From contig PLEY01000115.1 of the NCBI GenBank assembly GCA_003136595.1, forward strand, positions 24,442 to 80,909: 56,468 nucleotides of DNA, read 5' to 3'. Origin of the DNA: Burkholderiales bacterium (lineage in GTDB: Bacteria; Pseudomonadota; Gammaproteobacteria; Burkholderiales; Burkholderiaceae_D). The notes below the pieces were generated by a model, which saw nothing but the letters and a program-made list of their open reading frames with translations, did not search any database and was not told the DNA's origin. Below are positions 10,053 to 25,189 of the stretch, piece by piece (the stretch's first letter is position 1; each line of letters opens with the position of its first letter). The position numbers were made by a program, and so were the translations under genes.

Positions 10053-10059
10053 GATGGGC

Positions 10060-11031: not shown

Positions 11032-11220
11032 CGCTGCTCCTCGGAGGCTACTGCTCCCTGACACACCGGTCCGGGGGCGAAGTATAGGTAGAAAACGGCC
11101 CGCGAAAGATTGGACAAGGATTAGCGGTAAAGTTGCCTGCCCGGTGAAGGTTGGTGACAGAGAGCAATTTCAGGGTACCTGCTATCCCCTGATGTCAGCA
11201 GGGTCTCCTCTGCTCGGACC

Positions 11221-12240
11221 TTAACGCCGCAAGTTGAATATAGGCCGAACTGCGCCGGTTTGCAGGCCGCGATGATTCCGGATTGCGGGATTCTTCCAGG
11301 CCGCGAGGAGCTCGCCCGAGCGACCCTGCAAGAGTCCCAGCTGGCCCAGCGCTTCGACCACCGCCACCTGCAGGGCCCGCGCCGACCCGTCGGCGACTTT
11401 GACGGCCAGACCCAGACCAGCGCTGCGGCTGCCCAGCACCTGCACACCATCCGCACCCGCCTTCGAGATCCAGTCCCCGGGGGCGGTGCGCATGTAGGCC
11501 AGATCGCCGCGCGCTTCGCCCGAGACCAGCTCGGGATGCCCGGTCATGGCCGTGAAAATGGCCCCGAACGCTTCGCCAAATTCAGGGTCGGCGCTGCCCT
11601 GGGCAAGGCGCGCGTACAGGTGCGCGATGCCTGCGAGCGGCATGGCGTAATTCGGCGCGGAACAGCCGTCGATGCCAGCAACAAGGCTCTCGAGCGGGGC
11701 ACCCAGAACCCGTGCGACCTGGCCGCGAATCCGCGTCTGCAGGGGGTGGTCCCAATCCAGGTACCCCCGGGTCGGATGTCCGTGCAGGCGGCACCAGGCG
11801 AGAAAGCCGCTGTGCTTGCCGGAGCAGTTGTTATGCAATTGCGTCCAGCGCGCCCCGGCAGGGGGGTCTGCGCCGACGGCCGCGAAATGAAGCGGTGCAT
11901 GCACCCCGCAGGAAAGGTCGTCCTCGCCGCAGCCGCACGCCGCGAGGATCTTTCGAACCCCCTCGAGATGCATGTCGGCTCCGGAATGGCTTGCGCAGAG
12001 AAGCGCGAGCTCGCGCGATCCGAAGCCGAACTGACGCAGACCCCCGTCTTCAATAAAGGGCAGCGCCTGGATGGGCTTTAAGGTCGAGCGGGTGAAACAC
12101 AGGGTCTGGGGGTCACCCACGCCATAGAGCAGGCGCCCGGCGACGTCGACCACGGCAATGGCGCCATGGTGAACGCACTCCCTCGTTGCGCTTTCAGCCG
12201 ACAGGCCGCGCGTGGTCTCAACAAGAGGTGCCGTCGTCAT
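11221..12240 (-). CDS. L-asparaginase, AnsA/Rhizobium-type (asparaginase II family)
   Basis: A 339-residue asparaginase of the thermolabile Rhizobium etli AnsA type, unrelated to E. coli AnsA/AnsB. Family motifs are visible: FTRSTLKPIQ with a SxxK pair (Ser52/Lys55), the SHSG motif near residue 87, the HNNCSGKHSGFL segment, and GIDGCSAPNY. By homology the Ser/Lys pairs near the N terminus are catalytic. It would hydrolyse L-asparagine to aspartate and ammonia. ATG 12240 lies inside the end of rfaE2, overlapping by 23 bases on the same strand, so translation may be coupled. Whether it is cytoplasmic or periplasmic cannot be told; no signal peptide is visible. Confidence 0.83.
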   Translation of the reverse strand: MTTAPLVETTRGLSAESATRECVHHGAIAVVDVAGRLLYGVGDPQTLCFTRSTLKPIQALPFIEDGGLRQFGFGSRELALLCASHSGADMHLEGVRKILAACGCGEDDLSCGVHAPLHFAAVGADPPAGARWTQLHNNCSGKHSGFLAWCRLHGHPTRGYLDWDHPLQTRIRGQVARVLGAPLESLVAGIDGCSAPNYAMPLAGIAHLYARLAQGSADPEFGEAFGAIFTAMTGHPELVSGEARGDLAYMRTAPGDWISKAGADGVQVLGSRSAGLGLAVKVADGSARALQVAVVEALGQLGLLQGRSGELLAAWKNPAIRNHRGLQTGAVRPIFNLRR

Positions 12241-12721
12241 CGCGGGCAAGACTACGGATGCGTTCCAGGGTTGCCGAGGTGGAGCGTTCGAACACGAAGG
12301 GGATGGCGAGCGCACTCCCACCCCAGGAGCGTACCAGATGCGCTTCGCGCAGACGCTCCATGTCATAGTCGCCGCCCTTGACGAGGATGTCCGGCCGCAG
12401 CAGTTCGATGAGCTCGTAGGGCGTGTCCTCGTCGAACAGGGTCACGAGGTCGACCGCGGCGAGCGCTGCGAGCAGTGCCGCCCGGTCTTCCTGGGTGTTG
12501 ATCGGTCGGTCGTTACCCTTACCCAGGCGCCGCACCGACGCGTCGCTGTTCACGCCGACTATGAGCGCTGCGCCCAGGGCACGCGCCTGCGCGAGGTAGG
12601 TCACATGCCCGCGGTGGAGGACGTCGAAGACGCCGTTGGTGAACACCACCGGTCTGCCCAGGCCTGCGCTTAACCGGTGGGCCTCCATCGGGCTGACCAC
12701 TTTGTCTTCGAAGGGTGCCAT
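12218..12721 (-). CDS. rfaE2: D-glycero-beta-D-manno-heptose 1-phosphate adenylyltransferase
   Basis: The second half of E. coli HldE as a stand-alone enzyme: transfers AMP to heptose 1-phosphate to give ADP-heptose for lipopolysaccharide core. The 167-residue protein has the cytidylyltransferase-like motif TNGVFDVLHRGHVTYL (HRGH at residues 36-39), VGVNSDASVRRLG with the phosphate-binding Ser, and LVKGGDY. The kinase half (RfaE1/HldE1) is not in this window. The neighbour at the 5' side is a divergence-free gap of 76 bases to the desaturase-like gene; at the 3' side the asparaginase start overlaps by 23 bases. Confidence 0.92.
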   Translation of the reverse strand: MAPFEDKVVSPMEAHRLSAGLGRPVVFTNGVFDVLHRGHVTYLAQARALGAALIVGVNSDASVRRLGKGNDRPINTQEDRAALLAALAAVDLVTLFDEDTPYELIELLRPDILVKGGDYDMERLREAHLVRSWGGSALAIPFVFERSTSATLERIRSLARDDDGTSC

Positions 12722-12797
12722 CGGCCGGGCGCGGACAGATGCGGCAGGACCAGCAGGTATCAGGGCACGCGGTGCGGGCGCTGCAACAGGCAGGCGC

Positions 12798-13691
12798 TCA
12801 GACCGTCTCGCCCAGGGCCGAGGCAGGACCTTTGACCGGCAAGGCTGCCGCCGCGCCTTGTGCGATCCGCTGCGTGATTTCCTTCCGGTAGCGGTTCAGA
12901 TCCTGGGCCGAAGAGAAGGTCCGCTCAAAGAGCAGTGACAGATTGTGCAGGATCCGCTCGACGACCTTCGACTCCCATTCGGTGTCGAATTTGATCTGGG
13001 TATCAAGCCAGCGCTCGAGCCAGTTGGGATCCGGCAGGCGCGATTGAACCGTATCGTTTGGAAACAGGGCCTCGTTGACGTGCAGGTTGGTCGGATGCAG
13101 GGGCTTTTCGGTGCGGCGCGCGGAGGCCATCAGAACACCGATCTTGGCGAACGCCGCCCGCGCTGAATCGCCGAGTTCAGCAAGTGACTTTTTCATGTAG
13201 CGCAGATAGGCGCCACCGTGTCGGGCTTCGTCCTGGGAGATCAGCTTGTAGATATGCTTGATGACCGGCTCCGTATGCCATTCAGAAGCCCTGCGGTACC
13301 AGTGATTCAGGCGGATCTCCCCGCAGAAATGGAGCATCAGCGTCTCGAGGGCGGGTGCGGGATCGAACGGAAAACGCACGGCGTGCAGTTCCGCCTCGGT
13401 CGGCACGAGTTCCGGGCGAAAGCGCCTTAGGTACTCCATCAGGACCAGCGAATGCTTCTGCTCTTCGTAGAACCATACCGACATGAAGGCCGAGAAATCC
13501 GAATCGTCGCGGTTATCGCGCAGGAACATCTCGGTAGCCGGCAACGCAGACCACTCAGTGATCGCGTTCATCTTGATCGTCTGGGCCTGTTCGTCGGTGA
13601 GTTTCTGGGGCTCGAACGAATCCCAGGGAATGTCTTTGGACATCTCCCAACGCACCGCCTCGAGCGACTTGAACAATTCGGGATAAAGCAT
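12798..13691 (-). CDS. Di-iron ferritin-like protein, acyl-ACP desaturase family
   Basis: A 297-residue helical protein of the fatty-acid desaturase type 2 (soluble acyl-ACP desaturase) group, or a ferritin-like relative. The di-iron signature is complete in order: Glu46 (ITEW), EEQKH at 76-80, Glu125 (CGEIRL) and DEARH at 154-158. Such enzymes use a ferredoxin, O2 and two electrons to insert a double bond; the partner is unknown. Start ATG 13691 has GGAAG nine bases upstream and agrees with the family start; in-frame codons further upstream add non-conserved sequence. The gene is separated by 242 bases from the end of the permease gene of the lipid operon on the same strand, and may act on the same fatty acids (inference). 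Confidence 0.78.
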   Translation of the reverse strand: MLYPELFKSLEAVRWEMSKDIPWDSFEPQKLTDEQAQTIKMNAITEWSALPATEMFLRDNRDDSDFSAFMSVWFYEEQKHSLVLMEYLRRFRPELVPTEAELHAVRFPFDPAPALETLMLHFCGEIRLNHWYRRASEWHTEPVIKHIYKLISQDEARHGGAYLRYMKKSLAELGDSARAAFAKIGVLMASARRTEKPLHPTNLHVNEALFPNDTVQSRLPDPNWLERWLDTQIKFDTEWESKVVERILHNLSLLFERTFSSAQDLNRYRKEITQRIAQGAAAALPVKGPASALGETV

Positions 13692-13933
13692 AGGGGAGAC
13701 TTCCGGGCAAGTGTTTGATTTTAGCAGAAAAGCCCTCGACCAGAGGGGACAGGCACGCTCTTGCCGAACGATTGCTCGAAGCGGTACGTTGACGGCTGCC
13801 GGCCCCGTACCCGCCTTTGCGGCCCGTCTGCGGCCCATCTACGGCCGGGTCAGCCGGGTCGGCCGTCTCGGTCTGGCGGCTGACATCATCCCCCTTGAAT
13901 ACGTAACGCACGTGTCAGCGGATTCGCCTGACC

Positions 13934-15268
13934 CTAGGCCACCTGCCTGATGAACGGCGAGCGCCACAGCAGCAAGGCAGCGCCGAGCTTCAGCGCGCAG
14001 GGCACCAGTGCATAGCCGAACGACAGCGCATTGGTGCCCTTGGCCGTCAGATGGGACGGGTCATAACCGAGCGCGCCCAGGAGCGGCAGGCTGATTCCGG
14101 CCGCCAGCGCCAGGTTCAGTTTGGTCGCGAGACTCCACAGGCCGAAATAGGCGCCTTCCCGCACTCCACGATGCCCGGCCTCGGCGATGACGCCCGCCAG
14201 GATCGCCGGCGGCAGGGCGAGATCGCCCCCGATGGCCATGCCCGAGACGACGCAGATGGCCGCAAAAGGGATGAGATCGCCGGCGACGAGGAAGTACACC
14301 CAGACGAAAACCACCACGCTGAAGATCATCCCGAAGAGCCAGGCGCGCGCGAGCCCAAAACGCCCGGCCGCGAGGACCCACAGGGGCATCGAACAGGCGG
14401 CGGCCAGAAAGTAGACGCCCAACAGCAGCGCATCTCGATTTTCGAGTTCCAGCACGTCCCGGATGTAGAAAAGGACCAGGGTCGCCGGAATTGCGCTGGC
14501 GATGCCGTTGGCAAGAAAAATGACGAGCAGGGAGACGAAACGCCGGTTCGCCAGCGGCACGCGAAACGTCGAGAAGAGGCCAATCCCCTCGGCGAACACG
14601 AGTTTCCTGCCCAAAGGCGGATGCGGCGCCCGAAACAGCAGCAACAGGCCCGTGGCCAAGAGGGTGAAGACGAACAGGCCTGACAGCGCATCCATGCCGA
14701 GAACCTGCGGGACGGCCGCGGCGACCAGCACGCCAAGCAATCCACAGCCCTCGCGCACGCTGGTGATCCGGGTCCGCTCGTTGGCCACGTCGGAGAGATC
14801 CGCTCCCCAACTGTAGTACGCGATGTTGGCCAGTGAGAAGCCGGCGTAGACGACGATGAGGGCCGCGGCCAGCCAGACCGAGGCCCAGATGGAGGCAGCA
14901 CCCCGGCCCATGGGCGGCTGAAAGAGGGCGACGTAGCCCACAGCGAGAAGCGGCAGGGAAAAGACGACGAAGCGCCGGTAACCCCGAAGCCACCGGGCAC
15001 CCTCGCTGCGGCGACCGTGATCCACCCACCAGCCAAAGAGCGGGTCGGAGACGGCATCGAGCAGCCGTACGGCGAGCAGGATGATGCCGATGATCTCCAG
15101 CGACAGTCCGAAGCTGTCGCTGTAGAACTTCGGAACGAACACATAGATCGGCAGGGCGACCAGGGAGAGCGGCAGGCCGAACAAGCCGTAGCTGAACAGC
15201 TGCCCCGCATCCAGTTCGGGTTTGTCCCCCGCAGAGCCGCCAGGAACCGGTGCCAACGCGTCAGCCAC
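13934..15268 (-). CDS. GPH/MFS-type permease
   Basis: A 444-residue, twelve-helix transporter of the glycoside-pentoside-hexuronide (MelB-like, MFS_2) family. Visible traits are the first helix region LFSYGLFGLPLSLVALPIYVF, the conserved RLLDAVSDPLFGWWVDH loop between helices 2 and 3 (family consensus around DPxxGxxxD), and AYYSWGADLSD in the second third. The substrate is unknown; because it lies in a lipid-modifying operon, a sugar is not a safe guess. Start is GTG at 15268, 35 bases after the chalcone-isomerase-like gene stop, so it belongs to the same transcript. A GPH-like permease is, as I recall, also part of photo-oxidative-stress gene sets in Rhodobacter. Confidence 0.8.
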   Translation of the reverse strand: MADALAPVPGGSAGDKPELDAGQLFSYGLFGLPLSLVALPIYVFVPKFYSDSFGLSLEIIGIILLAVRLLDAVSDPLFGWWVDHGRRSEGARWLRGYRRFVVFSLPLLAVGYVALFQPPMGRGAASIWASVWLAAALIVVYAGFSLANIAYYSWGADLSDVANERTRITSVREGCGLLGVLVAAAVPQVLGMDALSGLFVFTLLATGLLLLFRAPHPPLGRKLVFAEGIGLFSTFRVPLANRRFVSLLVIFLANGIASAIPATLVLFYIRDVLELENRDALLLGVYFLAAACSMPLWVLAAGRFGLARAWLFGMIFSVVVFVWVYFLVAGDLIPFAAICVVSGMAIGGDLALPPAILAGVIAEAGHRGVREGAYFGLWSLATKLNLALAAGISLPLLGALGYDPSHLTAKGTNALSFGYALVPCALKLGAALLLWRSPFIRQVA

Positions 15269-15303
15269 CCGGGCTCGCCCGGGGCCGGCGCCTCAACGGC
15301 GCG

Positions 15304-15927
15304 TCATCGGCGCGGCGCCGCATCGGCCAGCAGTTTCTCGCGCAGCTCAGGCGCCTTGGTACGCGGATCAAGCCAGATCCGAAAGAAGGCCTGGGCAAGT
15401 TCGGGATCCTGGAGAAATCCGAGCAGCGCTCCATCTGAATAGAGCTTCAGCCCCTGGCCGGGCAGGAACAGACCCGTCAAGTGCTGACCATCGACGACAT
15501 CGGGAATCACCTTCAGGAGCTCCTCGTACCACTGCTCGCGCTGGGCCGGGGAACCCGCCCCTAGCCGTTCGAACTCGTCGAGCGAGGTCTTCGCGATGGC
15601 CTTGCCCTCGAAATGGCGGGCATACTTGACGTCGAGCGCGAAGGGCGCCGCGCCCGGCCGCTCCGGGAGGTAGCCTGCATCCCCGACAAAGAATTGGGCA
15701 TCGTAGACATGGAACCCCCAAAAGCGCAGCACCCCCTGGCCGGCGAGCCTGGCCTCGGGGATCGCCTGAGCCACGGGCGCAGGGACCGAGGCTGCGGCTA
15801 GCGCCCCCTGGGCGCCGGCAAGCGGAGCAAAGAGGGCAAGGCACACCTCGCAAACCAATGCAAAGGCCAGAGCACAAGCATAACGAAAGGCAGACCCATC
15901 GCGGCGCAGGCTCTGATCAACTCGCAT
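15304..15927 (-). CDS. Chalcone isomerase-like protein (secreted)
   Basis: A 207-residue protein with an N-terminal signal-like segment (YACALAFALVCEVCLALFAP), then the chalcone-isomerase-like core: LRFWGFHVYDAQFFVGDAG, LDVKYARHFEGKAIAKTS and the segment PGQGLKLYSDGALLGF near the end. Bacterial members have no proven chalcone chemistry; the fold can bind fatty acids (plant FAP proteins), which would fit its lipid operon. It likely acts in the periplasm. ATG 15927 overlaps the end of the methyltransferase by 11 bases, so translation coupling is likely. The next gene is the GPH permease. Confidence 0.82.
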   Translation of the reverse strand: MRVDQSLRRDGSAFRYACALAFALVCEVCLALFAPLAGAQGALAAASVPAPVAQAIPEARLAGQGVLRFWGFHVYDAQFFVGDAGYLPERPGAAPFALDVKYARHFEGKAIAKTSLDEFERLGAGSPAQREQWYEELLKVIPDVVDGQHLTGLFLPGQGLKLYSDGALLGFLQDPELAQAFFRIWLDPRTKAPELREKLLADAAPRR

Positions 15928-17164
15928 GCTCGAGAGTGAACTGGATCACGTTGGTGTTGGCATGCCGGAATGCTGCCTCGCAGTAGGCCAGATAGAACGC
16001 CCAGGTGCGCACGAACGGCGTGTCGAACGCCTGGGCACGAATTTCCCGCTCATGAATATAGAAATTGCGCAACCAGGCCTGTAGTGTACGCGCATAGTCC
16101 TGTCCGAACTCAAAAGCCTCGGTGACCACGAGCCCGGCGCGCTCAGCGTGCTTGCGGAAAATGGTGGGTGTCGGCAGCATGCCCCCCGGGAAGATGTACT
16201 GCTGTATGAAGTCGCTGCTCTTGCGGTAGGTCGGAAACAGGTCATCGGCGATGGTGATCGTCTGGATCACGGCACGGCCCGAGGGCTTCAGGTTTTTTTT
16301 CAGGCACTCGAAGTAGCTCGGCCAGTATTGTTCCCCGACCGCCTCGAACATCTCGATCGAGGCGATGCAGTCGAACTGCTCCTTGGTGTCGCGATAGTCC
16401 TGCAGCCTGAACTCGGCGCGCCCGCCCAGTCCCAGTGCCTCGAGCCGCTCGCGGGCATAGGCCAGCTGTTCGGTGGACAGCGTAAGTCCCGTGACGTGCA
16501 GGCCCTCGCGCGCGGCAACCTCGGCGAAACCACCCCAGCCGCAGCCGATCTCGAGCAGATGCTGGCCCGGCTTGGGGGCGAGCCTCTCGAGGATGCGCCG
16601 GTATTTCGCAAGCTGCGCCGCGGGCAGGTTCTCCAGGTCGTCACCGGACGCCGGCGCGTGGGCAAAGAGCGCGCTCGAGTACGTCATGCTCGGATCGAGC
16701 CAGAGCTCGTAGAAGCCGTTGCCGATGTCGTAGTGCGCGTGGATGTTCTTGCGGCTGCCCACCCGGGTGTTGCGATGCAGCAGATGGCGCAGGCGGTAGA
16801 AGACCTTGCCCCACCACTTGCCGTAGATGACGGCCTCGATGGCGTTGCGGTTGGCGACCATCACATGCATGAGCGCGGACAGGTTCGAGGTGCTCCAGTC
16901 ACCTGCGATGTAAGTCTCGCCAAATCCGATGTCGCCGTTCTTGAGCGCCGCATCGCACACGTTCCAGTTCGCAAGGACAATGTCGGCGTGCGGCTCGCCC
17001 CGGCCAAAGCGCATCGTGCTGCCTCCTGGCAGGGTCACCGTGAGCGATCCCTCCGACATTTTCTCCATGAGCTTGAGCACAAGACGGGCCGAAGGCGGGG
17101 CACCTTCGGTCGGTGCCGCGACGTGCGCAAGATCTGATTCGGGAAGGAGATGCTGCGTTGTCAT
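15917..17164 (-). CDS. Cyclopropane-fatty-acyl-phospholipid synthase-like methyltransferase
   Basis: A 415-residue SAM-dependent enzyme of the cyclopropane fatty acid synthase family, acting on unsaturated acyl chains of membrane phospholipids. HYDIGNGFYELWLDPSM (residues 144-160) is the family's substrate/bicarbonate region, LEIGCGWGGF (204-213) binds SAM, and EMFEAVGEQYWPSYF follows. Known relatives make cyclopropane rings or add methyl groups (UfaM, first step to furan fatty acids); sequence alone does not decide which. Start ATG 17164 overlaps the preceding DUF1365 gene by 4 bases, and its own end overlaps the chalcone-isomerase-like gene by 11. Confidence 0.9.
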   Translation of the reverse strand: MTTQHLLPESDLAHVAAPTEGAPPSARLVLKLMEKMSEGSLTVTLPGGSTMRFGRGEPHADIVLANWNVCDAALKNGDIGFGETYIAGDWSTSNLSALMHVMVANRNAIEAVIYGKWWGKVFYRLRHLLHRNTRVGSRKNIHAHYDIGNGFYELWLDPSMTYSSALFAHAPASGDDLENLPAAQLAKYRRILERLAPKPGQHLLEIGCGWGGFAEVAAREGLHVTGLTLSTEQLAYARERLEALGLGGRAEFRLQDYRDTKEQFDCIASIEMFEAVGEQYWPSYFECLKKNLKPSGRAVIQTITIADDLFPTYRKSSDFIQQYIFPGGMLPTPTIFRKHAERAGLVVTEAFEFGQDYARTLQAWLRNFYIHEREIRAQAFDTPFVRTWAFYLAYCEAAFRHANTNVIQFTLEHAS

Positions 17165-17982
17165 CGGTTAGCCTCTGCTGCGGGAGAATCGGGTTTGGGG
17201 ATGAACGGGACGCGCTTGATCCACAGTCTTGCGGCCTGCCAGTGGATGCGGGCGATCACGCCGAGGGTGAACAGTGGAAACCGGAGGAAGGCCCAGAGAA
17301 GACGGGCATCGGACAGGGGCACGTGCGTGCCGCTCAGACTGGTCTTGAGCAGCGGTCCATGCAGGTCGTCGTAGTCGATACGCATCACCGAACGCTGGGC
17401 GGTGACCATGAAGCGGAAGCGGTAGCGGCCCTCGATCCGGCAAAAGGGCGAGACGTGGAAGACCTTGCGCGCCTCGAGTTCCTCGCCAAAGCGCAAGGCC
17501 CGCCCATCCGCATGGTCGAGCAGATAGCAGTGGCTCTCCCCAAAGGTGTTGTTCACCTCGCACAGGATCGCGCGCAGCGTGCCGTCCTCCCGGTGGCAGA
17601 ACCAGAAGCTGACCGGATTGAAGACATAACCCAGGACGCGCGGAAAGGCATGCAGCCAGACCGGGCCGGTGGCGTCGTCCACGCCGTTGGCGCGCAACAG
17701 GGCATCGATCCATTCTGCGAGATCGCCGCCATCGCGGCCACCGTGGTCCCTGTCATGGAAAGCAAACAGGTTCCAGCGGTTGTAGCCGATAAGGCGGGTT
17801 CCCGCGAGCGCCTCGGGCAGCTCGCGCACCGGCAGGCGCAGAAAGTAGCTGCCGTACTCGAACGCATTGCCGCAGGGTCGCAGGCGCTGGTGGCGCACGC
17901 AGCCAAAGGCGATCGTGGCCCCCCCGCGCGCCCCCGGGGCGCCAAGCGTTGCTCCAGACCGACTCTGCGTCAAGGTATCCAT
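17161..17982 (-). CDS. DUF1365 protein
   Basis: A 273-residue DUF1365 member (FGCVRHQRLRPCGNAFEY near the start, VFNPVSFWFCHREDG, and KVFHVSPF near residue 180). The family has no proven biochemistry. It occurs together with a flavin amine oxidase and a cyclopropane-synthase-like methyltransferase in many proteobacteria, so participation in unusual fatty acid synthesis is a reasonable inference. I use ATG 17982, just after the preceding oxidase stop; a TTG at 17997 inside the oxidase end is an alternative adding five residues. The 3' end overlaps the methyltransferase ATG. Confidence 0.85.
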   Translation of the reverse strand: MDTLTQSRSGATLGAPGARGGATIAFGCVRHQRLRPCGNAFEYGSYFLRLPVRELPEALAGTRLIGYNRWNLFAFHDRDHGGRDGGDLAEWIDALLRANGVDDATGPVWLHAFPRVLGYVFNPVSFWFCHREDGTLRAILCEVNNTFGESHCYLLDHADGRALRFGEELEARKVFHVSPFCRIEGRYRFRFMVTAQRSVMRIDYDDLHGPLLKTSLSGTHVPLSDARLLWAFLRFPLFTLGVIARIHWQAARLWIKRVPFIPKPDSPAAEANR

Positions 17983-17986
17983 CGAC

Positions 17987-19297
17987 TCAGGCGGCAAGCG
18001 CTGCCGCCGCCGGAACCTGCGCGAGGATGCCCTCGGCTGCGGCCAGGCCGGACTTCAGACCATCCTCGTGGAAGCCATACCCGGTCCATGCGCCTGCAAA
18101 CCAGGTGTTGCGAGCGCCCTGGATGTGCGGGAGCCGCGCCTGGGCCTTGATGGCCCCGAGATCGAAGACGGGGTGACTGTAATCGTACTCGCCAAGGATG
18201 GTCTCGGGGGCAGGCGGACTGGCCGCATTGAGCGACACGATCACGGGCCGCTGGAAGGGTAGCGGCTGCAGACGGTTCAATAGATAGTGGACGCACACCG
18301 AGGATGTCGTGGATGTCGTGGATGCATCGGAGGCGATCGTGCGTTGGTAGTTCCACGCCGCCCACGCGCGGCGCCGGGTGGGAAGCACCGCGGCATCGGT
18401 GTGCAAGACGGCGTGATTCTGCTGGTAGCGGATCGCACCCAGCACGCTGCGCTCCTCGTCGGAGGCATCGAGAAGGAGCGCCTGGGCCTGGTCGGTGTGG
18501 CAGGCGAGAACCACCTGGTCGTAGTCCACGCTGTCATGGCTGCCCCGCACCGTGACGCGGCCCGCCGGATCAGCGCCGCGGACGATGCCCAGAGCCTTAT
18601 CGTTGATGCGCACCTCGGGGATGGCCTTCGCGAGCACCTTCACATATTCCCGTGCACCACCGCGTACCGTGTACCACTGGGGCCGATCGGTGACCTGGAG
18701 CAGGCCATGGTTATGGCAGAACCTAACGAAGGTGGCGAGCGGATATTCGGCCATCTGGGCGGTGGAGCAGGACCAGATCGCAGCGGCCATCGGCAAGAGG
18801 TACCAGTCCCGAAAGGCCTGCCCGAAGCGCTCGTCGTCGAGGAACTGACCGAGCGTCATGTGCAGCGCAGTGGCATCGGGCTCTTGCGCGAGCGCCGTGG
18901 CGCGCGCATTAAAACGCAGGATGTCACGCAGCATCACGAGAAACCGGGGGTTTACGAGATTGCGGCGTTGGGCAAAGACGCTGTTCAGGTCAGTACCGGC
19001 CCACTCGAGCCCGCGCACGCCATTCTCGATCAAGCCGACCGAGAACGACATCTCCGAGGCACTGGTGACGATGCCCAGTTGCTCGAAGAGCCGAACAAGC
19101 GTGGGATAGGTGCGGTGGTTGTAGACCAGAAACCCGGTGTCGACCGGATAGGTCAGACCATCGACGGTGGCATCGACCGTGTGCGTGTGGCCCCCCAGAT
19201 AACGCTCCGACTCATAGAGCGTCACCTCATGCATGCCCGACAGGCGCCACGCGCAGGCGAGCCCGGAGATACCCGCGCCGATAACCGCAATTTTCAC
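17987..19297 (-). CDS. FAD-dependent amine oxidase-like oxidoreductase
   Basis: A 436-residue flavoprotein with the N-terminal dinucleotide motif GAGISG (residues 7-12) followed by an acidic strand end (LYESERYLGGHTHTV), and a C-terminal FAD-contact segment WFAGAWTGYGFHEDGLKSG. It is the usual first gene of DUF1365/CFA-synthase clusters (often annotated as NAD/FAD-binding or amine oxidase); the substrate is not known, and a fatty-acyl oxidation or desaturation step is an inference. Start GTG 19297 with GGGGGA six bases upstream. A short nucleotide repeat (GGATGTCGT units near 18303-18323) makes the run STTSTTSS about residue 328. A 306-base leader precedes it. Confidence 0.85.
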   Translation of the reverse strand: MKIAVIGAGISGLACAWRLSGMHEVTLYESERYLGGHTHTVDATVDGLTYPVDTGFLVYNHRTYPTLVRLFEQLGIVTSASEMSFSVGLIENGVRGLEWAGTDLNSVFAQRRNLVNPRFLVMLRDILRFNARATALAQEPDATALHMTLGQFLDDERFGQAFRDWYLLPMAAAIWSCSTAQMAEYPLATFVRFCHNHGLLQVTDRPQWYTVRGGAREYVKVLAKAIPEVRINDKALGIVRGADPAGRVTVRGSHDSVDYDQVVLACHTDQAQALLLDASDEERSVLGAIRYQQNHAVLHTDAAVLPTRRRAWAAWNYQRTIASDASTTSTTSSVCVHYLLNRLQPLPFQRPVIVSLNAASPPAPETILGEYDYSHPVFDLGAIKAQARLPHIQGARNTWFAGAWTGYGFHEDGLKSGLAAAEGILAQVPAAAALAA

Positions 19298-19400
19298 TGA
19301 AATCCCCCACGCGGTCGTTCAGCCCGCCCCCCCCGCTTCGGGCTGATAATGACCGGTTCGGCCGGGCACCAAAAGATGCCCGCCGCCTCCATGTAAAACG

Positions 19401-19479
19401 ACTGCGAAACGACCCGGGGTACAAATTGGGGGGGGAGGGGCACCCCGGGGGAACCCGCTGACGCGGGTCGTCTCGCAGT
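19401..19479. repeat. Long imperfect inverted repeat in lipid-operon leader
   Basis: Arms 19401-19416 (ACTGCGAAACGACCCG) and 19464-19479 are complementary at 15 of 16 positions, with 47 bases between. A nested, partly competing pair uses 19413-19420 and 19442-19449. Function unknown; an RNA switch between two folds or a decayed repeat element are both possible. Confidence 0.6.
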
Positions 19480-19490
19480 ACAACCGTGCT

Positions 19491-19516
19491 GCAACCCGAA
19501 GTTTTCGCCGGGTTGC
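19491..19516. repeat. Hairpin, possible folE2 terminator or leader element
   Basis: GCAACCC (19491-19497) pairs with GGGTTGC (19510-19516), with an inner CGAA/TTCG match. It lies about 90 bases beyond the folE2 stop on the minus strand. No T-run follows, so a factor-independent terminator is not well supported. Confidence 0.4.
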
Positions 19517-19603
19517 GTGCGAGCGTCAAGCGCGCTCGTTGTATTTACGTAGGTCCCGAAGCTTTGGATTCGGCCAAGCCATTGCGCCCATAGCCCGTAT
19601 CGG

Positions 19604-20407
19604 TTAGGCCGCGAGGCGCTTGTCGCGCTCGATGCGGGCGTAGGCCGAGTGGTTGTGGATCGACTCGAAGTTTTCCGAGGCGACCGAGTACGAGAGGATC
19701 CGGGCGTCCTGGTCGAGGGCGAGCGCCAGGTCCCGCACCAGGTCCTCGACGAACTTGGGGTTCTCGTAGGCCCGCTCGGTCACGTACTTCTCGTCGGGCC
19801 GCTTCAGAAGCCCCCACAGCTCGCACGAGGCCACGCTTTCAGCGATACCCACCAGCACCTCGATCGGCATGTCGGCGGCAATCTCGGCGGCGAGAGTCAG
19901 GTGCGAGCGCTGGTTGTGGGCTCCATACTGGGAGATGTTCTTCGAGCAGGGGCACAGACTCGTGACGGGCACGAGCACCTCCTGCGTGAAGAAAAAGCGC
20001 GAGTCGATCTGCTCGGCGGTCAGCGTCACGTGATAGTCCATGAGGCTCTGCACCTTCGAGACGGGTGCCGTCTTGCGGACAAAATAGGGGAACCGGAACT
20101 GCATGTAGCCGCGGCGCGCGCCCAGGCGCTCCACCATCGTCTGCATGAGCGCGTGCACGGATTGGTAGCTCAGCTCCGGCACGCCGGCCTCCAGCACCTC
20201 GAGAAAACGCGACATGTGGGTGCCCTTGACTGCCGCGTCGAGACCGACATAGAGATCGACGTGGGCGATGGTGTGCTGGGCTCCCTCAGGTCCCGCGACC
20301 TGGATGGGATAGACGACCGACTTGACCCCCACGCGTTCAATGGCGATGTTACGGGCATCCGCTACGGACTGTATATCAGGCAGAGGCAGTCTCTCCGGGG
20401 CATTCAT
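19604..20407 (-). CDS. folE2: GTP cyclohydrolase type IB, FolE2
   Basis: Opens GTP to 7,8-dihydroneopterin triphosphate, the entry to folate and queuosine (and pterin cofactors). The 267-residue protein has the FolE2 signature [22 protein letters not shown] (in part), with the metal-binding cysteine region Cys152/Cys154, and the ExxH segment downstream. FolE2 can work with metals other than zinc, which suits zinc or oxidative stress. ATG 20407 has AAGGAATT upstream. Its place between a photoreceptor-type regulator and the lipid operon matches known light-induced gene sets of Pseudomonas and Burkholderia, where a GTP cyclohydrolase is included. Confidence 0.93.
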
Positions 20408-20438
20408 GTAATTCCTTTATGGGGCCCACAAACGGGGC

Positions 20439-20445
20439 AGACAAT
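20439..20445 (-). promoter_or_regulatory. Half-site like the gpx/litR inverted repeat, before folE2
   Basis: Reading toward folE2 this is ATTGTCT, the same seven bases that begin the inverted repeat at 21266-21280. It is only a half site, 31 bases before the folE2 ATG, so chance is possible. Confidence 0.25.
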
Positions 20446-20535
20446 CGGCACCAGCCGCGCCATCAGTGGCGACTCGAGGTCATCCTGAAAGCCGCGGTGG
20501 CCTAACGCCGGGCGGCCAAGCCGCCGGCTACTCGG

Positions 20536-21141
20536 TCAGGATGCAGCGAGAAGCTTCTCGATCTCCCCGACAAACTTGCGATCGGTCGGTCCGACGGGGC
20601 TCGCGAAACTTGCCACCACGTTGCCGTTGCGATCCAGGACATACTTGAAGAAATTCCATCCCGGCTTCTTGCCAGTGGCCTGCGCGAGCGCGAGATAGAG
20701 CGGATTGGCGCTGGCGCCAACCACTGAAGTCTTTGAGAACATCGGAAATTTCACGCCGTACGTGTTGTAGCAGAAGTCCGCGATCTTCTTGTTTTCGTCA
20801 GGCTCCTGCGCGAAGTCGTTCGAAGGAAAGCCGAGCACGACCAGACCCTTGTCCTCGTACTTGGCATAGAGTTCCTCGAGCCCCTTATACTGATCGGTGA
20901 AACCGCAGTAGCTTGCCGTGTTGACAACCACCACCACCTTGCCCGCGTACTGGCACAGCGATTGCTCCGATTCGTCCTGGAGCTTCTTGAACGTGCGGTT
21001 AAGGAGGCTGGGGCAGGACCCGGGGGCAGGGGCCGCAGTCGCGGCGGGAGCACTGCTCTGGGCCTGGGCAGCGGGAGAAACGAGCCCGCACAGGGTGCAG
21101 GTCAGTAGCGCAATCATCGAGAAAACCGAGCGTGCTTTCAT
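20536..21141 (-). CDS. Exported glutathione peroxidase
   Basis: A 201-residue member of the glutathione peroxidase family that reduces peroxides, possibly lipid hydroperoxides. The N terminus is a signal peptide (hydrophobic residues about 7-24, AQAQ near the cleavage site), so it acts in the periplasm or envelope, an unusual place for this family. The catalytic Cys79 lies in NTASYCGFT (Cys, not selenocysteine). Other family residues are Gln and Trp in GFPSNDF...and KPGWNFFKY. It has no visible gene partner downstream until folE2. ATG 21141 has GGAG about 7 bases upstream; an earlier Met is less well placed. It is divergent from the litR-like gene with a well-formed promoter. Confidence 0.88.
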   Translation of the reverse strand: MKARSVFSMIALLTCTLCGLVSPAAQAQSSAPAATAAPAPGSCPSLLNRTFKKLQDESEQSLCQYAGKVVVVVNTASYCGFTDQYKGLEELYAKYEDKGLVVLGFPSNDFAQEPDENKKIADFCYNTYGVKFPMFSKTSVVGASANPLYLALAQATGKKPGWNFFKYVLDRNGNVVASFASPVGPTDRKFVGEIEKLLAAS

Positions 21142-21201
21142 GTTGCACTCCTTCGAGTAGGCGGACATTGTGGGAAGCGGAGAAACTGCCCCGCGGGGGC
21201 A

Positions 21202-21216
21202 CTTGTCCTAGGCAAG
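21202..21216. promoter_or_regulatory. Imperfect inverted repeat, candidate operator 2
   Basis: CTTGTC-CTA-GGCAAG, arms matching at 5 of 6 positions with a 3-base spacer. It resembles the repeat at 21266-21280 and lies downstream of the gpx -10, where binding would block transcription. Confidence 0.45.
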
Positions 21217-21233
21217 ACCTACTTCAGCGGCTT

Positions 21234-21262
21234 ATACTAAGGACACGGCCGCGAGAAGTCAA
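21234..21262 (-). promoter_or_regulatory. Promoter of glutathione peroxidase gene
   Basis: On the minus strand TTGACT (21262-21257) is 17 bases from TAGTAT (21239-21234), matching 5 of 6 and 4 of 6 consensus bases. Two similar inverted repeats lie at either side. This is a sequence-based prediction. Confidence 0.55.
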
Positions 21263-21265
21263 CGA

Positions 21266-21280
21266 ATTGTCTTGGACAAT
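21266..21280. promoter_or_regulatory. Perfect inverted repeat ATTGTC-N3-GACAAT, candidate operator 1
   Basis: ATTGTCTTGGACAAT is a perfect 6+3+6 palindrome between divergent gpx and litR-like genes. It lies just upstream of the gpx -35 and overlaps a possible litR -35 (TTGGAC, 21272-21277). A MerR-type dimer is a natural binder; the specific protein is an inference. Confidence 0.5.
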
Positions 21281-21310
21281 CTTTTCGGCTTGGGATTTAT
21301 TGCTGTTCCA

Positions 21311-21318
21311 GGAGGAGG
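21311..21318 (+). promoter_or_regulatory. Strong ribosome-binding site placed for a leader peptide, not for litR
   Basis: GGAGGAGG at 21311-21318 lies 11 bases before ATG 21330. The litR start at 21359 is 40 bases away and has no site of its own, which suggests that litR translation depends on the leader. Confidence 0.5.
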
Positions 21319-21329
21319 CAGAGCATACG

Positions 21330-21362
21330 ATGCCCCGCTCCCCTATGCATAAACTGGCATGA
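21330..21362 (+). CDS. Possible 10-codon leader peptide coupled to litR
   Basis: Reads MPRSPMHKLA and stops at TGA 21360-21362, whose first two bases overlap the litR ATG (ATGA). It follows a strong ribosome site (GGAGGAGG), while litR has none, so translation coupling is the simplest reading. Too short for family recognition; no repeated codons suggest classical attenuation. It may be chance, and no conservation can be checked here. Confidence 0.4.
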   Translation: MPRSPMHKLA

Positions 21363-22300
21363 ATGAGTTCATTGCACAACCTGATGTTACCCTGAGCATC
21401 GCGGCTGTCGAGCGCGACACCGGCCTGTCGAAGGACACCCTGCGGGTCTGGGAGCGGCGCTATGGCTTTCCCATGCCCAGGCGCGACGCCTTTGGCGAGC
21501 GCTGCTACGGCACCGACGAGGTCGACAAGCTGCGCCTCGTCAAGCGCCTCATGGACGGCGGTCACCGGCCCGGCAAGATCGTGCACCGCTCGAGCGCCGA
21601 ACTGCAGGAGCTGGCGCAGGCCTTGGCGCCTCCGGCCGCCTCGCCCCCGTGCGCCGACCTCGATGGCTACCTGAACCTCCTTAAGACGCATCGTGTCGAT
21701 GAGCTCAGGCGCTCGCTGTCCCAGGAGCTGGTGCGCGTGGGTCTCGCCCGTTTCGTCGCGGAGTCGATCGCACCGCTCACGGTTCTGGTCGGGGAATGCT
21801 GGGCGCGCGGCTCGATCGAGATCTTCGAGGAGCACCTCTTCACCGAACTCGTCCAGGTGCTCCTGCGCAACGCGATCAACCAGATTCCCGAACCTGGCGG
21901 CCGCCCGGACATCCTCCTCACCACTTTTCCACAAGAGCCCCACGGCCTGGGTCTGCTCATGGCCGAGGCGCTTTTCTCCCTGGACGGCTGCAAGTGCGTC
22001 TCGCTCGGGGTGCAGACGCCGATCTGGGATATCGCCCGCGCAGCACAGGCCCAAAGGGTTGACATCGTGGCCCTGTCATTCTCGCCGGTCGTCAACGGTC
22101 ACCAGCTTATCGAAGGTCTCATCGAACTGACGCATCGTCTCGGACCCTCGGTCGAGATCTGGGCGGGCGGCACACACCCGCTTCTCAAACGCCGGCCACC
22201 GCTTAACGTTCGCACCCTGTCGGGACTTGCCGACCTGCACCTTGCCGTCGCGGAGTGGCGCTCGCGCGCCGCGGCGCGGGGCGATCGGGCCGCATCGTAG
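21359..22300 (+). CDS. litR: LitR/CarH-type MerR regulator with B12-binding photosensor domain
   Basis: A 313-residue transcription regulator. An N-terminal MerR winged helix (residues about 10-80: DTGLSKDTLRVWERRYGFP, RCYGTDEVDKLRLVKRLM) is followed by a helical bundle and a cobalamin-binding fold. The bundle carries W148-x9-E158-H159, and the B12 domain has ExHxxG at 193-198 with the ligand His195; both are the adenosylcobalamin marks of CarH/LitR. Known homologues are repressor tetramers in the dark that fall apart when light breaks the Co-C bond. ATG 21359 overlaps the TGA of a possible leader peptide. Its neighbours (gpx, folE2, lipid operon) match light-induced gene sets. Some relatives do not bind B12, so function needs testing. 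Confidence 0.88.
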   Translation: MNEFIAQPDVTLSIAAVERDTGLSKDTLRVWERRYGFPMPRRDAFGERCYGTDEVDKLRLVKRLMDGGHRPGKIVHRSSAELQELAQALAPPAASPPCADLDGYLNLLKTHRVDELRRSLSQELVRVGLARFVAESIAPLTVLVGECWARGSIEIFEEHLFTELVQVLLRNAINQIPEPGGRPDILLTTFPQEPHGLGLLMAEALFSLDGCKCVSLGVQTPIWDIARAAQAQRVDIVALSFSPVVNGHQLIEGLIELTHRLGPSVEIWAGGTHPLLKRRPPLNVRTLSGLADLHLAVAEWRSRAAARGDRAAS

Positions 22301-22318
22301 CGTGCTGCGGGTGCTGTA

Positions 22319-23137
22319 CTACATCTGTTTGAACAGGTGAGTGAAGCTGCGACTGACCTCGAGCTTCTCAGGATGTCCCTTCAAGGCCACGATCTGCCGT
22401 CCACGAAAGTCGCGTGTCACCCCGGCGATCGCCGTGGTATTGACGAGCGTGGAGCGATGGATCTGCCAGAACTGACCCGGATCGAGTTCCTCGATGAGCT
22501 CCTTGATCGGCTTTTTGATGAGCGCCTCGAACTGCAGAGTCTGAACGCGCGTGTATTTCTCGTCGGACTGGAAGAAGAGGATCTCCTGGACCGGGATGAG
22601 ACGCAGGCTCTGGCCCATCGATGCCTGAATCCACTGCAGGTAGTCGCGCGCGGCGGCGCCGCCCGCCGCGCCGTTCGGGCCGGACTCAAGTCGGGCCGCG
22701 AGCCTTGCGAGGAGGCGCGGCAGGTCCTCTGCCTGGGCGTCCTGGTCGGGCGTGCCGCCGCCCAGGCGCTCCTTGAGCCGCGCAACCGTGAGCGCGAGGC
22801 GCTCGCGCTCGGCGGGCTTTAGCACATAGTCGATCGCTCCCTGCTCAAACGCCTCGATCGCGTACTGGTCATAGGCGGTGATGAATACGACGTGGCACAT
22901 CCCGGCGACGGTGCGCGCGACCTCGATCCCGGTCATCCCGGGCATGCGGATGTCGAGAAACGCGAGATCCGGGCTGTGTTCCTGGACGAGCGCGAGCGCC
23001 TCGGTGCCATTCTTTGCCTCGCCCAGGAGCTGCAGTTCGGGCCAGACCTCCGCCAGGCGCAGCTTGAGCTGCTCGCGCATGAGCCGCTCGTCGTCGGCGA
23101 GGATGGCAGTAATCGGTCGATCGGTGGTTTCGGACAT
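22319..23137 (-). CDS. LytTR-family response regulator
   Basis: A 272-residue response regulator with an N-terminal receiver domain (phospho-acceptor Asp62 in AFLDIRMPG, Lys in VLKPA) and a C-terminal LytTR DNA-binding domain (LRLIPVQEILFFQSDEKYTRV, FWQIHRSTLVNTTAI). It is the AlgR/LytT group, which regulates envelope, exopolysaccharide or adhesion genes. Between the domains is a low-complexity linker (GPNGAAGGAAARD). Start ATG 23137 is chosen as the family begins with the receiver strand; a longer in-frame reading adds 25 non-conserved residues. The cognate sensor kinase lies at 23633-25189 with a membrane protein between them. Confidence 0.88.
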   Translation of the reverse strand: MSETTDRPITAILADDERLMREQLKLRLAEVWPELQLLGEAKNGTEALALVQEHSPDLAFLDIRMPGMTGIEVARTVAGMCHVVFITAYDQYAIEAFEQGAIDYVLKPAERERLALTVARLKERLGGGTPDQDAQAEDLPRLLARLAARLESGPNGAAGGAAARDYLQWIQASMGQSLRLIPVQEILFFQSDEKYTRVQTLQFEALIKKPIKELIEELDPGQFWQIHRSTLVNTTAIAGVTRDFRGRQIVALKGHPEKLEVSRSFTHLFKQM

Positions 23138-23153
23138 GCGGGGCGGGTGGGCT

Positions 23154-23561
23154 TCACGTCGATGCCAGGGGCGGCATGCGGCGGCGGCGCAGGCCGCGTA
23201 CCAGTAAAACACAGCCGGCCACGACGATCAACACCGGCGAGAGCACCAACGCGAGACTCCCGAACACGGCGATGCCGGCCGCCCCCATGCCGATCAGGGT
23301 CGCTGCGAGCGCGAGCAGCAGGCCGCACGGCACGAGCACGCCCACCAGCGCCACGAGAAGACCGATGGCAACGCCGGTCGCAAACAGGGCCACGGCAGCG
23401 ATCAGGGTGACAAGCACGGTGGCCAGATGCCCGTCAAGCAGATCGTCCCCCACGCTCACGCTCATGCCCCCCGCATCGCCCCAGAGGGCGGCGCCCAACG
23501 CGAGCGCCGCCAGCACGCAAAGCAGCGCCCACAACTTGAACAGCACGCCGAACAGTTTCAT
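23154..23561 (-). CDS. Small hydrophobic membrane protein
   Basis: A 135-residue protein with four predicted membrane helices: about residues 4-27, 45-68, 69-93 and 99-120. No family is recognised. ATG 23561 has AAGGAG about seven bases upstream. It lies between the sensor kinase and the response regulator on the same strand, 71 bases after the kinase stop and 16 bases before the regulator start, so it is probably part of the same operon, perhaps a regulator of the kinase (inference). A long run of Ala, Leu, Val and Gly makes codon-based calling unreliable; operon position is the main support. Confidence 0.7.
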   Translation of the reverse strand: MKLFGVLFKLWALLCVLAALALGAALWGDAGGMSVSVGDDLLDGHLATVLVTLIAAVALFATGVAIGLLVALVGVLVPCGLLLALAATLIGMGAAGIAVFGSLALVLSPVLIVVAGCVLLVRGLRRRRMPPLAST

Positions 23562-23632
23562 GTCCCGATCTCCTTGGTCCTGCCAGCTTCACTAAGGGTT
23601 ACCTAGAATTCCATCGATTCACTTCGATGCAC

Positions 23633-25189
23633 TCAGCCCCGCTTGGCCGCGGGCTGATACGGTACGATCACCGCAACGCTGGTGCCGCTGGGTTCATTGG
23701 CGGTGATCACGAAGCGGGCCCGCCCGCCGTAGAGCAAATTGAGCCGCTCGCGAATGTTGGCCAGGCCGAGGCCGCCGCCCGACGTCGGCGCACCCGCCGG
23801 GTTGAAGCCCAGCCCGGTGTCGGCGATGGTCACGTAGAGATCACCATCGGCGACCTCAGCCTGGATCCTGATCGATCCGCCCTCGGCCTTCGGCTCCAGG
23901 CCATGCTTGATGGCATTCTCCACGAGGGACTGCAGCATCATTGGCGGAAACTCGGCCGAGCGCAGCCCCTCGGGCACCAGGATGAACACCTGCAGCCGTT
24001 CTTCCATGCGCACCTTCAGAATGTCCAGATAAGCCCTGACCAGTTCGACTTCACGACCCAGCGTGGTCGAGGACTCGCGCATCTGCGGCAAGGCCGCGCG
24101 CAGATACTGGATCAGGTTCTTCTGCATGGTCGAGGCGCGCGCTGGATCAGTCTCGATCAGGTAATCGACCGAAGACAGCGTATTGAAAAGGAAATGGGGC
24201 TCGACCTGGGCTTGCATCATCTGCATCCGGGCCTCCACCACCTGGCGCTGCAGGCTCTCGTGCTCGGCCACCTGGGAGGCGGACCGGACCAGGGCCTCAG
24301 CACGCCGCTTGTTGCTCATCGACACCTTGATGGCGATCAGGTAGGCGAACGCAATCGTCATCACGACCTTGAAGAAGTCCCAGAGGGCGACGCTCTCCCG
24401 ATGGACCACAGTGCGCTTGGTGTGCTCCTCGACGACGTTGTCGATCGCCTCCTGGATCTCGCTTTGCGCCTGCTTGACCGCGTCGACATACTCCTCTTTG
24501 CGTTCGCTGCGCTGCTGCTCGGCTAGAGCGCGCTGCTGCTCGGCGTCTTCCCGGGCCGCCTGCGCATCCTTCTCGGTACTGTTCTCATCCCCATCTGCGT
24601 GGCTCGCTGCGGCGCCCTTATCGGCCGCCCCGGGCGCCTTGTTGGCCGCCTCGTCGAGGATGCGCACGCCGTGTGAATCGATGACGATCTCCTTGCCGTC
24701 CTTTTGCAGCCGGATGGCTTCCTTGTCGACCGGATCCCGACCCGGTCCTCCCGGCGTGGCGGGGGGGACAGGCGGCGCCTTGGGCAGGTCGATATGCATC
24801 GGCTTGCTCGGCTTGCCATCAAAGGAAGGCTGAATCGTCAACCCGCCCGTATCGTCCTTGACCTCGATCTTGATGGGCTTGTCGGGGCCGGTGACGATCT
24901 CGGTGGGCTCGTCGATGCCAAGGATGTTGCCAATCGTCACCGAGGCGATGAAGATCACGAGTCCAAGCAGCGAGATGCGCTTCCAGGAAGCCTCGGCGGC
25001 CCAGGCGGCCACCTGGGCATTCCACTCCTTCAGATGGGGCAGGGCGCGCTGCAGCCAGTCGCCCAAACCCGAGACGAAATCGCTCGCGGGCTGCGGCCGG
25101 CGGCCGGGCGTGAACCCGCCGGCCGGTGGCGGAGCACCGTTGGGTGGCGGGGGGGCGCCGGGAGGCGGATCGATATCGGGAGGCGTCAT
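23633..25189 (-). CDS. LytS-like sensor histidine kinase
   Basis: A 518-residue kinase of the His_kinase (PF06580) type, partner of the LytTR regulator. Order: Pro-rich N terminus (PPPGAPPPP...), a membrane segment about residues 71-91, an extracytoplasmic region about 92-270 with a charged coiled coil (AREDAEQQRALAEQQRSE) and a short sequence IVIDSHGVRILDE, a second membrane segment about 271-290, then the phospho-accepting region QVEPHFLFNTLSSV near 325-338 and HATPase with NAIKHGLEPKAEGG and TGLGFNP. The large, unusual extracytoplasmic domain is probably the sensor; ligand unknown. The same strand and order as the two following genes suggest one operon. Confidence 0.88.
   Translation of the reverse strand: MTPPDIDPPPGAPPPPNGAPPPAGGFTPGRRPQPASDFVSGLGDWLQRALPHLKEWNAQVAAWAAEASWKRISLLGLVIFIASVTIGNILGIDEPTEIVTGPDKPIKIEVKDDTGGLTIQPSFDGKPSKPMHIDLPKAPPVPPATPGGPGRDPVDKEAIRLQKDGKEIVIDSHGVRILDEAANKAPGAADKGAAASHADGDENSTEKDAQAAREDAEQQRALAEQQRSERKEEYVDAVKQAQSEIQEAIDNVVEEHTKRTVVHRESVALWDFFKVVMTIAFAYLIAIKVSMSNKRRAEALVRSASQVAEHESLQRQVVEARMQMMQAQVEPHFLFNTLSSVDYLIETDPARASTMQKNLIQYLRAALPQMRESSTTLGREVELVRAYLDILKVRMEERLQVFILVPEGLRSAEFPPMMLQSLVENAIKHGLEPKAEGGSIRIQAEVADGDLYVTIADTGLGFNPAGAPTSGGGLGLANIRERLNLLYGGRARFVITANEPSGTSVAVIVPYQPAAKRG

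Follow-up and report, generated by a model that had tools for sequence, protein, structure and literature searches.

A B12-type LitR regulator beside predicted furan fatty acid and glutathione peroxidase genes: a probable photo-oxidative-stress locus in phototrophic Burkholderiales

The CarH regulators of Thermus, Bacillus and the Myxococcales are described as combining a MerR head with a B12-binding domain that carries the Wx9EH and B12 motifs, and as acting on carotenoid genes through an operator with an 11-bp direct repeat (PMC8156234, PMC9304148). In Thermus CarH, adenosylcobalamin (AdoB12) is reported to be held by W131, E141, H142 and H177 (PMC11796333). Some myxobacterial CarH proteins are thought to use two operators at divergent promoters, and some of the operators described contain inverted repeats. 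A regulator with the same MerR head, B12 domain and motifs is encoded in a stretch of 56,468 nucleotides from a draft Burkholderiales genome (GCA_003136595.1, contig PLEY01000115.1, positions 24,442 to 80,909; hereafter the window), where, in contrast to CarH, it is associated with an inverted repeat at the promoter of a lipid and peroxidase operon. This block is probably a photo-oxidative-stress set of an anoxygenic phototroph, in which LitR would switch a gpx-folE2-ufa operon for furan lipids.

The lipid genes have their closest described counterparts in RSP1091-1087 of Rhodobacter sphaeroides and RPA2569-2571 of Rhodopseudomonas palustris, which encode the same UfaD, UfaO and UfaM families (PMC7380195); a GPH symporter is a further component shared with the Rhodobacter operon (PMC7074977). 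In R. sphaeroides, UfaM methylates, UfaD (RSP1091, a flavin adenine dinucleotide (FAD) protein) desaturates and UfaO (RSP1090, DUF1365) is required for the oxygen step, and the three R. palustris ufa genes alone are reported to be enough for furan acid formation (PMC7380195). The Rhodobacter operon is under RpoE/ChrR control with ufaM elsewhere, whereas in the window the lipid genes have LitR as a neighbor and are preceded in line by gpx and folE2. In the LitR regions of Pseudomonas putida and P. mendocina (PplR1/PmlR1 and PmlR2), a MerR/LitR regulator, an FAD oxidoreductase and ufaM are again found in one region, together with light-induced folate/pterin genes and a TTGACT -35 box, and the PmlR2 light promoter has a layout similar to that of the window, with one site over the -35 box and the other downstream of the transcription start, ahead of the start codon (PMC9758184). 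The Pseudomonas proteins differ in that the second B12 domain is described as absent and a LOV protein relieves PmlR2; their site is TGTACA-N12-TGTACA (PMC9758184), whereas that found here is TTTGTC-N3-GACAAA, often paired at 62-64 bp. The exported glutathione peroxidase (Gpx) PgpD of Shewanella oneidensis belongs to an oxidative-stress regulon with cfa and photolyase genes, described as being under the extracytoplasmic function (ECF) sigma factor RpoE2 (PMC4336711), whereas the gpx gene of the window is divergent from litR.

The regulator gene, litR (21359..22300, + strand), encodes a protein of 313 residues in which both the MerR head (PF13411, 43.4 bits against a cut-off of 21.6) and the B12-binding domain (PF02310, 42.5 bits against 32.1) score above cut-off, and its closest solved structures are those of CarH (3whp, E 6e-26; 5c8d, E 7.8e-26). 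W148, E158, H159 and H195 align with W131, E141, H142 and H177 of the Thermus protein and are kept in 46, 47, 46 and 45 of 47 LitR proteins, the window protein included. The Wx9EH and ExHx2G motifs are intact, and both are present in all 80 named homologues (the best 80 of 555 relatives, whose loci are referred to below as the named loci); E193, H195, G198, S240, G270 and G271 are invariant in 24 LitR sequences. We take the complete B12 motif to be ExHx2G ... S ... GG, presumably with a Val two residues past the position of S240, where the window protein has Ser. Since its score of 124.7 bits with the NCBIfam CarH equivalog model NF052513 is below the cut-off of 400, the protein is a CarH relative and not a CarH equivalog. 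Class II LitRs, such as those of Pseudomonas, have no complete B12 domain; with PF02310 above cut-off, the window regulator is, judged by its sequence, of the B12 type and unlike them. An adenosyltransferase gene was found in the genome and is among the observations in favor of the proposed photo-oxidative-stress block. One LitR homologue (L100:11942-12916, - strand) keeps the first Glu and is without equivalents of W131, H142, H177 and other checked positions; its locus holds folE2, a photolyase-related gene and a desaturase-like gene, and the palindrome upstream of it is kept. From these residues, it is perhaps a light-blind derivative.

A common palindrome, TTTGTC-N3-GACAAA, emerged without any prior model from the regions upstream of LitR. 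When an operator model (threshold 14 bits) was trained on half of the loci and applied to the held-out half, 18, 19, 17 and 13 of 24 held-out regions passed, compared with 4-6 of 480 random segments of the same loci. New LitR loci passed in 66 of 75 cases; among 1500 random segments, a few possibly covering a true operator site, 43 did so. Five of the 80 named loci had been excluded here as duplicates of training loci, and the loci that failed were L183, L189, L200, L203, L204, L208, L210, L213 and L226. A strong site is present in 101 of 124 distinct loci, with a second site as well in 69. The distances between sites (n = 116) are 62 bp in 14 cases, 63 bp in 21 and 64 bp in 10, with no other peak this large, so that an operator pair spaced by 62-64 bp, or six helical turns, is found in 45 of the 124 loci. 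Of the 46 pairs spaced by 57-68 bp, 25 have a TTGAC after the palindrome nearer to LitR, and 21 have a -10 box in addition.

In the window, operator O1 (TTGTCTTGGACAA, 21267..21279), an exact palindrome and the top site at 23.3 bits, adjoins the -35 box of a predicted sigma-70 promoter before gpx (TTGACT-17-TAGTAT, 21234..21262, - strand; -35 box 21262-21257, -10 box 21239-21234). Operator O2 (TTGTCCTAGGCAA, 21203..21215, 17.0 bits) lies downstream of the predicted -10 box and is aligned as a pair with O1, its centre 64 bp away; the two sites thus lie on either side of the gpx promoter. A separate consensus scan gave this promoter as the only - strand match in 19280-21400. In other loci, the operator model was passed upstream of FolE2 in 6 of 13 cases and upstream of Gpx in 7-10 of 19, and upstream of UfaD in LitR-less loci in 0-1 of 21. 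Pseudomonas-type sites were considered and rejected: the window has eight TRTACA matches, against a mean of 5.29 after shuffling, and the litR-gpx gap has none. An operator-like site at 10978-10997 (18.3 bits) was also dropped, as it lies inside an AraC-type coding open reading frame (ORF) and is probably due to chance. Searches for further regulon members across the genome gave 18 matches to TTGTCYWDGNCA against 15 for a control, with no excess. The one-mismatch palindrome TTGTCNNNGACAA occurs at 130 places on each strand, compared with 68 for the reversed control, and among 18 scored loci of this type, with ten neighboring proteins scanned (a TonB plug, PAS/GAF sensors and others), there was no convincing extra regulon member. 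A LitR-like palindrome of 18.9 bits lies about 31 bp upstream of a TonB-receptor plug ORF (G000:C165:20178; L166:1497-1516) and, read from the sequence, could be a link to B12 uptake or chance.

To compare gene order across Burkholderiales, as the sequence-only reading of the window had proposed, we used a sample of 150 genomes of the order, reading at most 20 kb around each of 60 UfaO genes besides that of the window and at a further 40 desaturase or LitR loci, some of which end at contig edges. LitR was accepted in 46 of 59 genomes (E <= 4.4e-42; 13 weaker hits were dropped) and UfaO in 64, of which the weak hits G042, G086 and G127 were left out of the reading of loci. Both genes occur in 43 genomes, that is, in 43 of the 46 with LitR. 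Near LitR in the 80 named loci are UfaD (65), UfaO (62), UfaM (59), the chalcone isomerase-like protein (47), the GPH permease (45), Gpx (35), FolE2 (21) and a photolyase-related protein (15). The common order is SnoaL-SDR-DUF3833-permease-CHI-UfaM-UfaO-UfaD-(FolE2)-(Gpx)-divergent LitR, where CHI is the chalcone isomerase-like protein; the window represents the form with FolE2 and Gpx, in which the desaturase gene, and not SnoaL-SDR-DUF3833, follows the permease. A search of the window's own genome for DUF3833 gave no match, though the control gave none either. Similar orders recur in many families, and the arrangement is more than chance. The block therefore proved recurrent: a B12-type LitR beside the UfaD/UfaO/UfaM set, with folE2 and Gpx, is found repeatedly in the named loci and the sampled genomes.

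Translation and family scans showed that all the genes listed in the sequence-only reading are present and nearly all had been named correctly, including the CarH/LitR-type regulator, for which the domains, the structural matches and the Wx9EH and B12 motifs agree. The lipid genes lie on the - strand in the order ufaD (17987..19297, FAD oxidoreductase, PF01593), ufaO (17161..17997, DUF1365, PF07103 E 8.8e-83), ufaM (15917..17164, S-adenosylmethionine-dependent methyltransferase of the CMAS family, PF02353 E 3.2e-81), the chalcone isomerase-like gene (15304..15927, PF16036) and a gene for a GPH-type major facilitator superfamily permease (13934..15268, PF13347 E 4.7e-59). The overlapping operon that had been proposed holds for ufaD-ufaO-ufaM-CHI and stops short of the permease, which follows CHI after 35 bp. 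Likewise, gpx is divergent with respect to the regulator only, and is read in the same direction as folE2 and the operon. Intergenic gaps of 128, 306 and 242 bp separate Gpx from FolE2, FolE2 from UfaD, and the permease from the desaturase gene.

The FAD amine-oxidase-like, DUF1365 and CMAS proteins encoded side by side in the window represent the three furan pathway families, and UfaD, UfaO and UfaM adjoin one another in 59 of the 80 named loci; identity among the sampled UfaO hits ranges from 25 to 62%. Such a set could also be read as a light-induced cyclopropanation block, in which the cyclopropane fatty acid (CFA) synthase-like enzyme makes plain cyclopropane acids. The PF02353 family and an identity of 37% over 288 residues to another CMAS protein of the genome are consistent with that reading, which we nevertheless consider quite improbable: the three genes keep company in most loci, their R. 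palustris counterparts suffice for furan acid, and the other CMAS protein (contig C143) is a separate one with the canonical Cys and His intact. In the window UfaM, the bicarbonate ligands Cys139 and His266 of CFA synthase (E. coli numbering) are replaced by Ser164 and Gln301, so the canonical ligand pair is absent; of 119 sequences under comparison, that of the window among them, all carry Gln and 114 carry Ser or Ala. These substitutions are the mark of a separate clade, and we use them as such only. They were dropped as evidence against a cyclopropane product, as cotton cyclopropane synthases are described as carrying the Gln as well and two of the three also the Ser (PMC3132707), a likeness that favors the cyclopropane reading.

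The gpx gene (20536..21168, - strand; PF00255 E 2.4e-31) likely starts at an internal Met at 21141. Its product is of the Cys form, with the catalytic residues C88, W171 and N172 in the GSHPx domain, and is probably exported; by eye, the N-terminus resembles a signal peptide, with a hydrophobic stretch ending in AQA. Where human GPX7 has FPCNQF the window protein has FPSNDF, and among LitR-linked Gpx proteins this segment carries Ser in 51 of 54 and Asp in 48 of 54, with L080 and L129 canonical. The FPSxDF segment of the window protein and 53 homologues may, on this comparison, be the sign of a subfamily that differs in mechanism or substrate. The folE2 gene (19604..20407, - strand; GTP cyclohydrolase, NF010200 above cut-off) has described relatives both among the PplR-controlled light-induced genes of P. 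putida (PMC8508746) and among genes induced by singlet oxygen in Rhodobacter (PMC7074977). The expectation that folE2- and CFA-like genes belong to LitR sets accords with the ufaM and GTP cyclohydrolase genes published for Pseudomonas (PMC9758184, PMC8508746), as does that of similar lipid genes in the Rhodobacter singlet-oxygen regulon with the RSP1091-1087 operon. Gpx had been thought an unfamiliar addition to such sets. It is no oddity, because no other mapped divergent gene lies closer to LitR in any of the 35 (of 80) named loci that contain it, and a periplasmic Gpx under ECF control is published for Shewanella (PMC4336711). The supposed additions thus include known companions of the photo-oxidative stress response.

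The published regulation of related gene sets raises the question of whether LitR governs the lipid genes at all. In Rhodobacter and Shewanella such sets are described as ECF-controlled (PMC7074977, PMC4336711), and the ufa genes of the window might answer to an ECF sigma/ChrR pair through singlet oxygen while LitR governs gpx-folE2 only; the operator model found no LitR site in the 306-bp folE2-ufaD gap, and a whole-genome search gave two cupin_7 (ChrR-like) proteins above cut-off. Set against this, four ORFs scanned beside the cupin_7 genes, a small sample, include no sigma factor (a G6PD, a radical-SAM protein and two family-less ORFs), and in all 12 LitR-ufaD loci in which ufaD is the nearest mapped gene the operator lies between the two. 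No ECF sigma/ChrR pair was seen among ten locus proteins scanned, in a draft genome and with no search aimed at a sigma factor. We regard separate ECF control as improbable, and LitR control of the whole operon as the better account.

The host is very probably an anoxygenic phototroph: a 5-kb contig of its genome carries one reaction-centre gene, close to genes whose products have nitrogenase-like domains of the BchN/BchB type. Of 20 sampled genomes with reaction-centre genes, 19 have UfaO, 17 LitR and 19 the desaturase-like gene, compared with 45, 29 and 41 of the 130 others. All ten phototroph genera have at least one UfaO genome, for which P is about 3e-4 given 44 of 92 genera; the exceptions among phototrophs are G118, with none of the three genes, and G069 and G141, with no strong LitR match. 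Bacteriochlorophyll generates singlet oxygen, and the block therefore has an obvious purpose in phototrophs.

Taken together, these results suggest the following course of events, by analogy with CarH and PmlR2 for the switch and with the Rhodobacter and Rhodopseudomonas proteins for the chemistry. In the dark, AdoB12-bound LitR would sit on both operators and shut the gpx promoter; light would cleave the Co-C bond, LitR would depart and gpx-folE2-ufaD-ufaO-ufaM-CHI-permease would be transcribed. UfaM would then methylate an unsaturated phospholipid chain, UfaD would introduce a second double bond and UfaO would insert oxygen, closing the furan ring. The furan lipid would scavenge singlet oxygen, and the exported Gpx would clear peroxides from the envelope. 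The block would in this way tie a B12-type light-sensing repressor to antioxidant furan fatty acids across the order, and in phototrophs especially. Light-induced furan lipids are predicted for the locus-bearing Rubrivivax gelatinosus, Limnobacter humi and Polynucleobacter strains; the operator sequence and spacing are defined and open to testing, and the promoter layout is possibly useful for light control.

A number of observations weigh against this interpretation. The light response, DNA binding and lipid product of the block are all things that we infer. The window ufa genes are assigned to the furan pathway families by family match, and the Ser/Gln pair of UfaM is no proof of a non-cyclopropane product, because two of the cotton cyclopropane synthases share it. 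Light control of these genes requires read-through from the gpx promoter, since the folE2-ufaD gap holds no LitR site; in addition, 21 of the 46 operator pairs have no TTGAC, and -35 and -10 boxes occur together in only 21. There is no strong LitR match in 21 of the 64 UfaO genomes, and the lipid genes are not always LitR-controlled, because a TetR-like gene replaces LitR beside ufaD in 11 loci. The counts include related genomes and so do not represent independent events, shared descent accounts for part of the association of UfaO with phototrophy, and the host genome is a draft of 4.86 Mb in 196 contigs. In the 11 loci just mentioned (L042, L045, L047, L058-L062, L071-L073), genes of a single cluster stand beside ufaD at the usual place of LitR, and the one member scanned matches TetR_N; on this sequence evidence, one and the same operon of lipid genes seems to have changed its regulator.

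A more specific proposal is that a LitR tetramer loops between O1 and O2, as their helical phase would allow. This would amount to a new build of B12 switch, in which the promoter is closed in a light-breakable loop between inverted repeats six turns apart and B12 photochemistry is coupled to furan lipids and peroxide defence, in a standing phototroph module of the order with the role that RpoE/ChrR plays in Rhodobacter; we advance this tentatively and hold it to be rather unlikely. Within the searchable literature, the novelty lies in the combination of LitR, furan genes and gpx, in the phased pair of operators and in the association with phototrophy, while the pathway families, the regulator family and most of the companion genes are known. 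Among the matches listed, no paper concerned this operator or LitR-linked furan genes in phototrophic Burkholderiales; overlap with work in J. Bacteriol. on the LitR proteins of Burkholderia multivorans (class III) and P. putida is possible.

Beyond the permease lies a gene for a di-iron protein of the acyl-acyl carrier protein (ACP) desaturase fold (12798..13691, - strand), which had been counted with the light-induced set. Its ORF extends to 13838 and its homologues begin at MLYPELF, at 13691. PF03405 scores 29.7 bits against 22.7 over the whole ORF, with no single stretch above threshold; the protein matches no NCBIfam model, and sequence comparison gave no close relative of known structure. 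In the structure model (mean predicted local distance difference test score, pLDDT, 91), the top fold matches are acyl-ACP desaturases (Z 19.4, 3.5 Å over 244 residues, 14% identity), followed by R2-like oxidases (Z 17.1); a likeness of fold does not in itself establish a function. The putative di-iron ligands E46, E77xxH80, E125 and E155xxH158, assigned by motif, are invariant in 35 sequences, and 56 near-full-length hits outside the window genome are 69-84% identical, a higher conservation than that of UfaO. The gene was found in 61 genomes, of which one was dropped (a 35-residue hit) and the partial hits G147, G050 and G026 were kept.

Were this gene part of the light set, it would supply or modify unsaturated chains for UfaM, driven by read-through from the LitR block. 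The modelled kinship with acyl-ACP desaturases would suit that role, and so would the distribution of the gene, which 19 of 20 phototrophs have and 41 of the 130 other genomes; it stands 7-8 bp after LitR in three loci, and L188 and L190 have the order asnB-FER-folE2 divergent from LitR. It is near LitR in 37 of the 80 named loci and is directed away from the block in every one of them (10 to the left, 27 to the right), an arrangement that is expected for any divergent block inserted there. The gene pairs instead with rfaE2, from which a median of 29 bp separates it across 37 loci; in the window rfaE2 lies at 12218..12721 (- strand; heptose-1-phosphate adenylyltransferase, TIGR02199 above cut-off), outside the light set. 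The LitR-ufa block is found upstream of this desaturase/rfaE2 unit in both orientations, and in several ufa-less loci the desaturase gene follows housekeeping genes of the BON, SIS, LppC and RsmI types. UfaO is absent from 18 of 60 desaturase genomes, and a LitR site lies upstream of the gene in only 1-4 of 53 loci. In the window, the 242 bp before the gene contain one weak terminator-like hairpin, and no promoter-like match was found in 13650-13960. Membership in the light set is thus unlikely, and that part of the sequence-only reading is not supported. The desaturase gene is better described as a conserved neighbor that belongs to the rfaE2 unit, possibly linked to lipid A or the envelope, with co-regulation by read-through possible.

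An Rfam scan of 9000-26000 gave zero matches. On the other side of litR, the adjoining stretch 22319-25189 encodes, as named by eye, a response regulator of the LytTR type and a protein resembling a sensor kinase; a LytTR match occurs in just one of the 80 named LitR loci.

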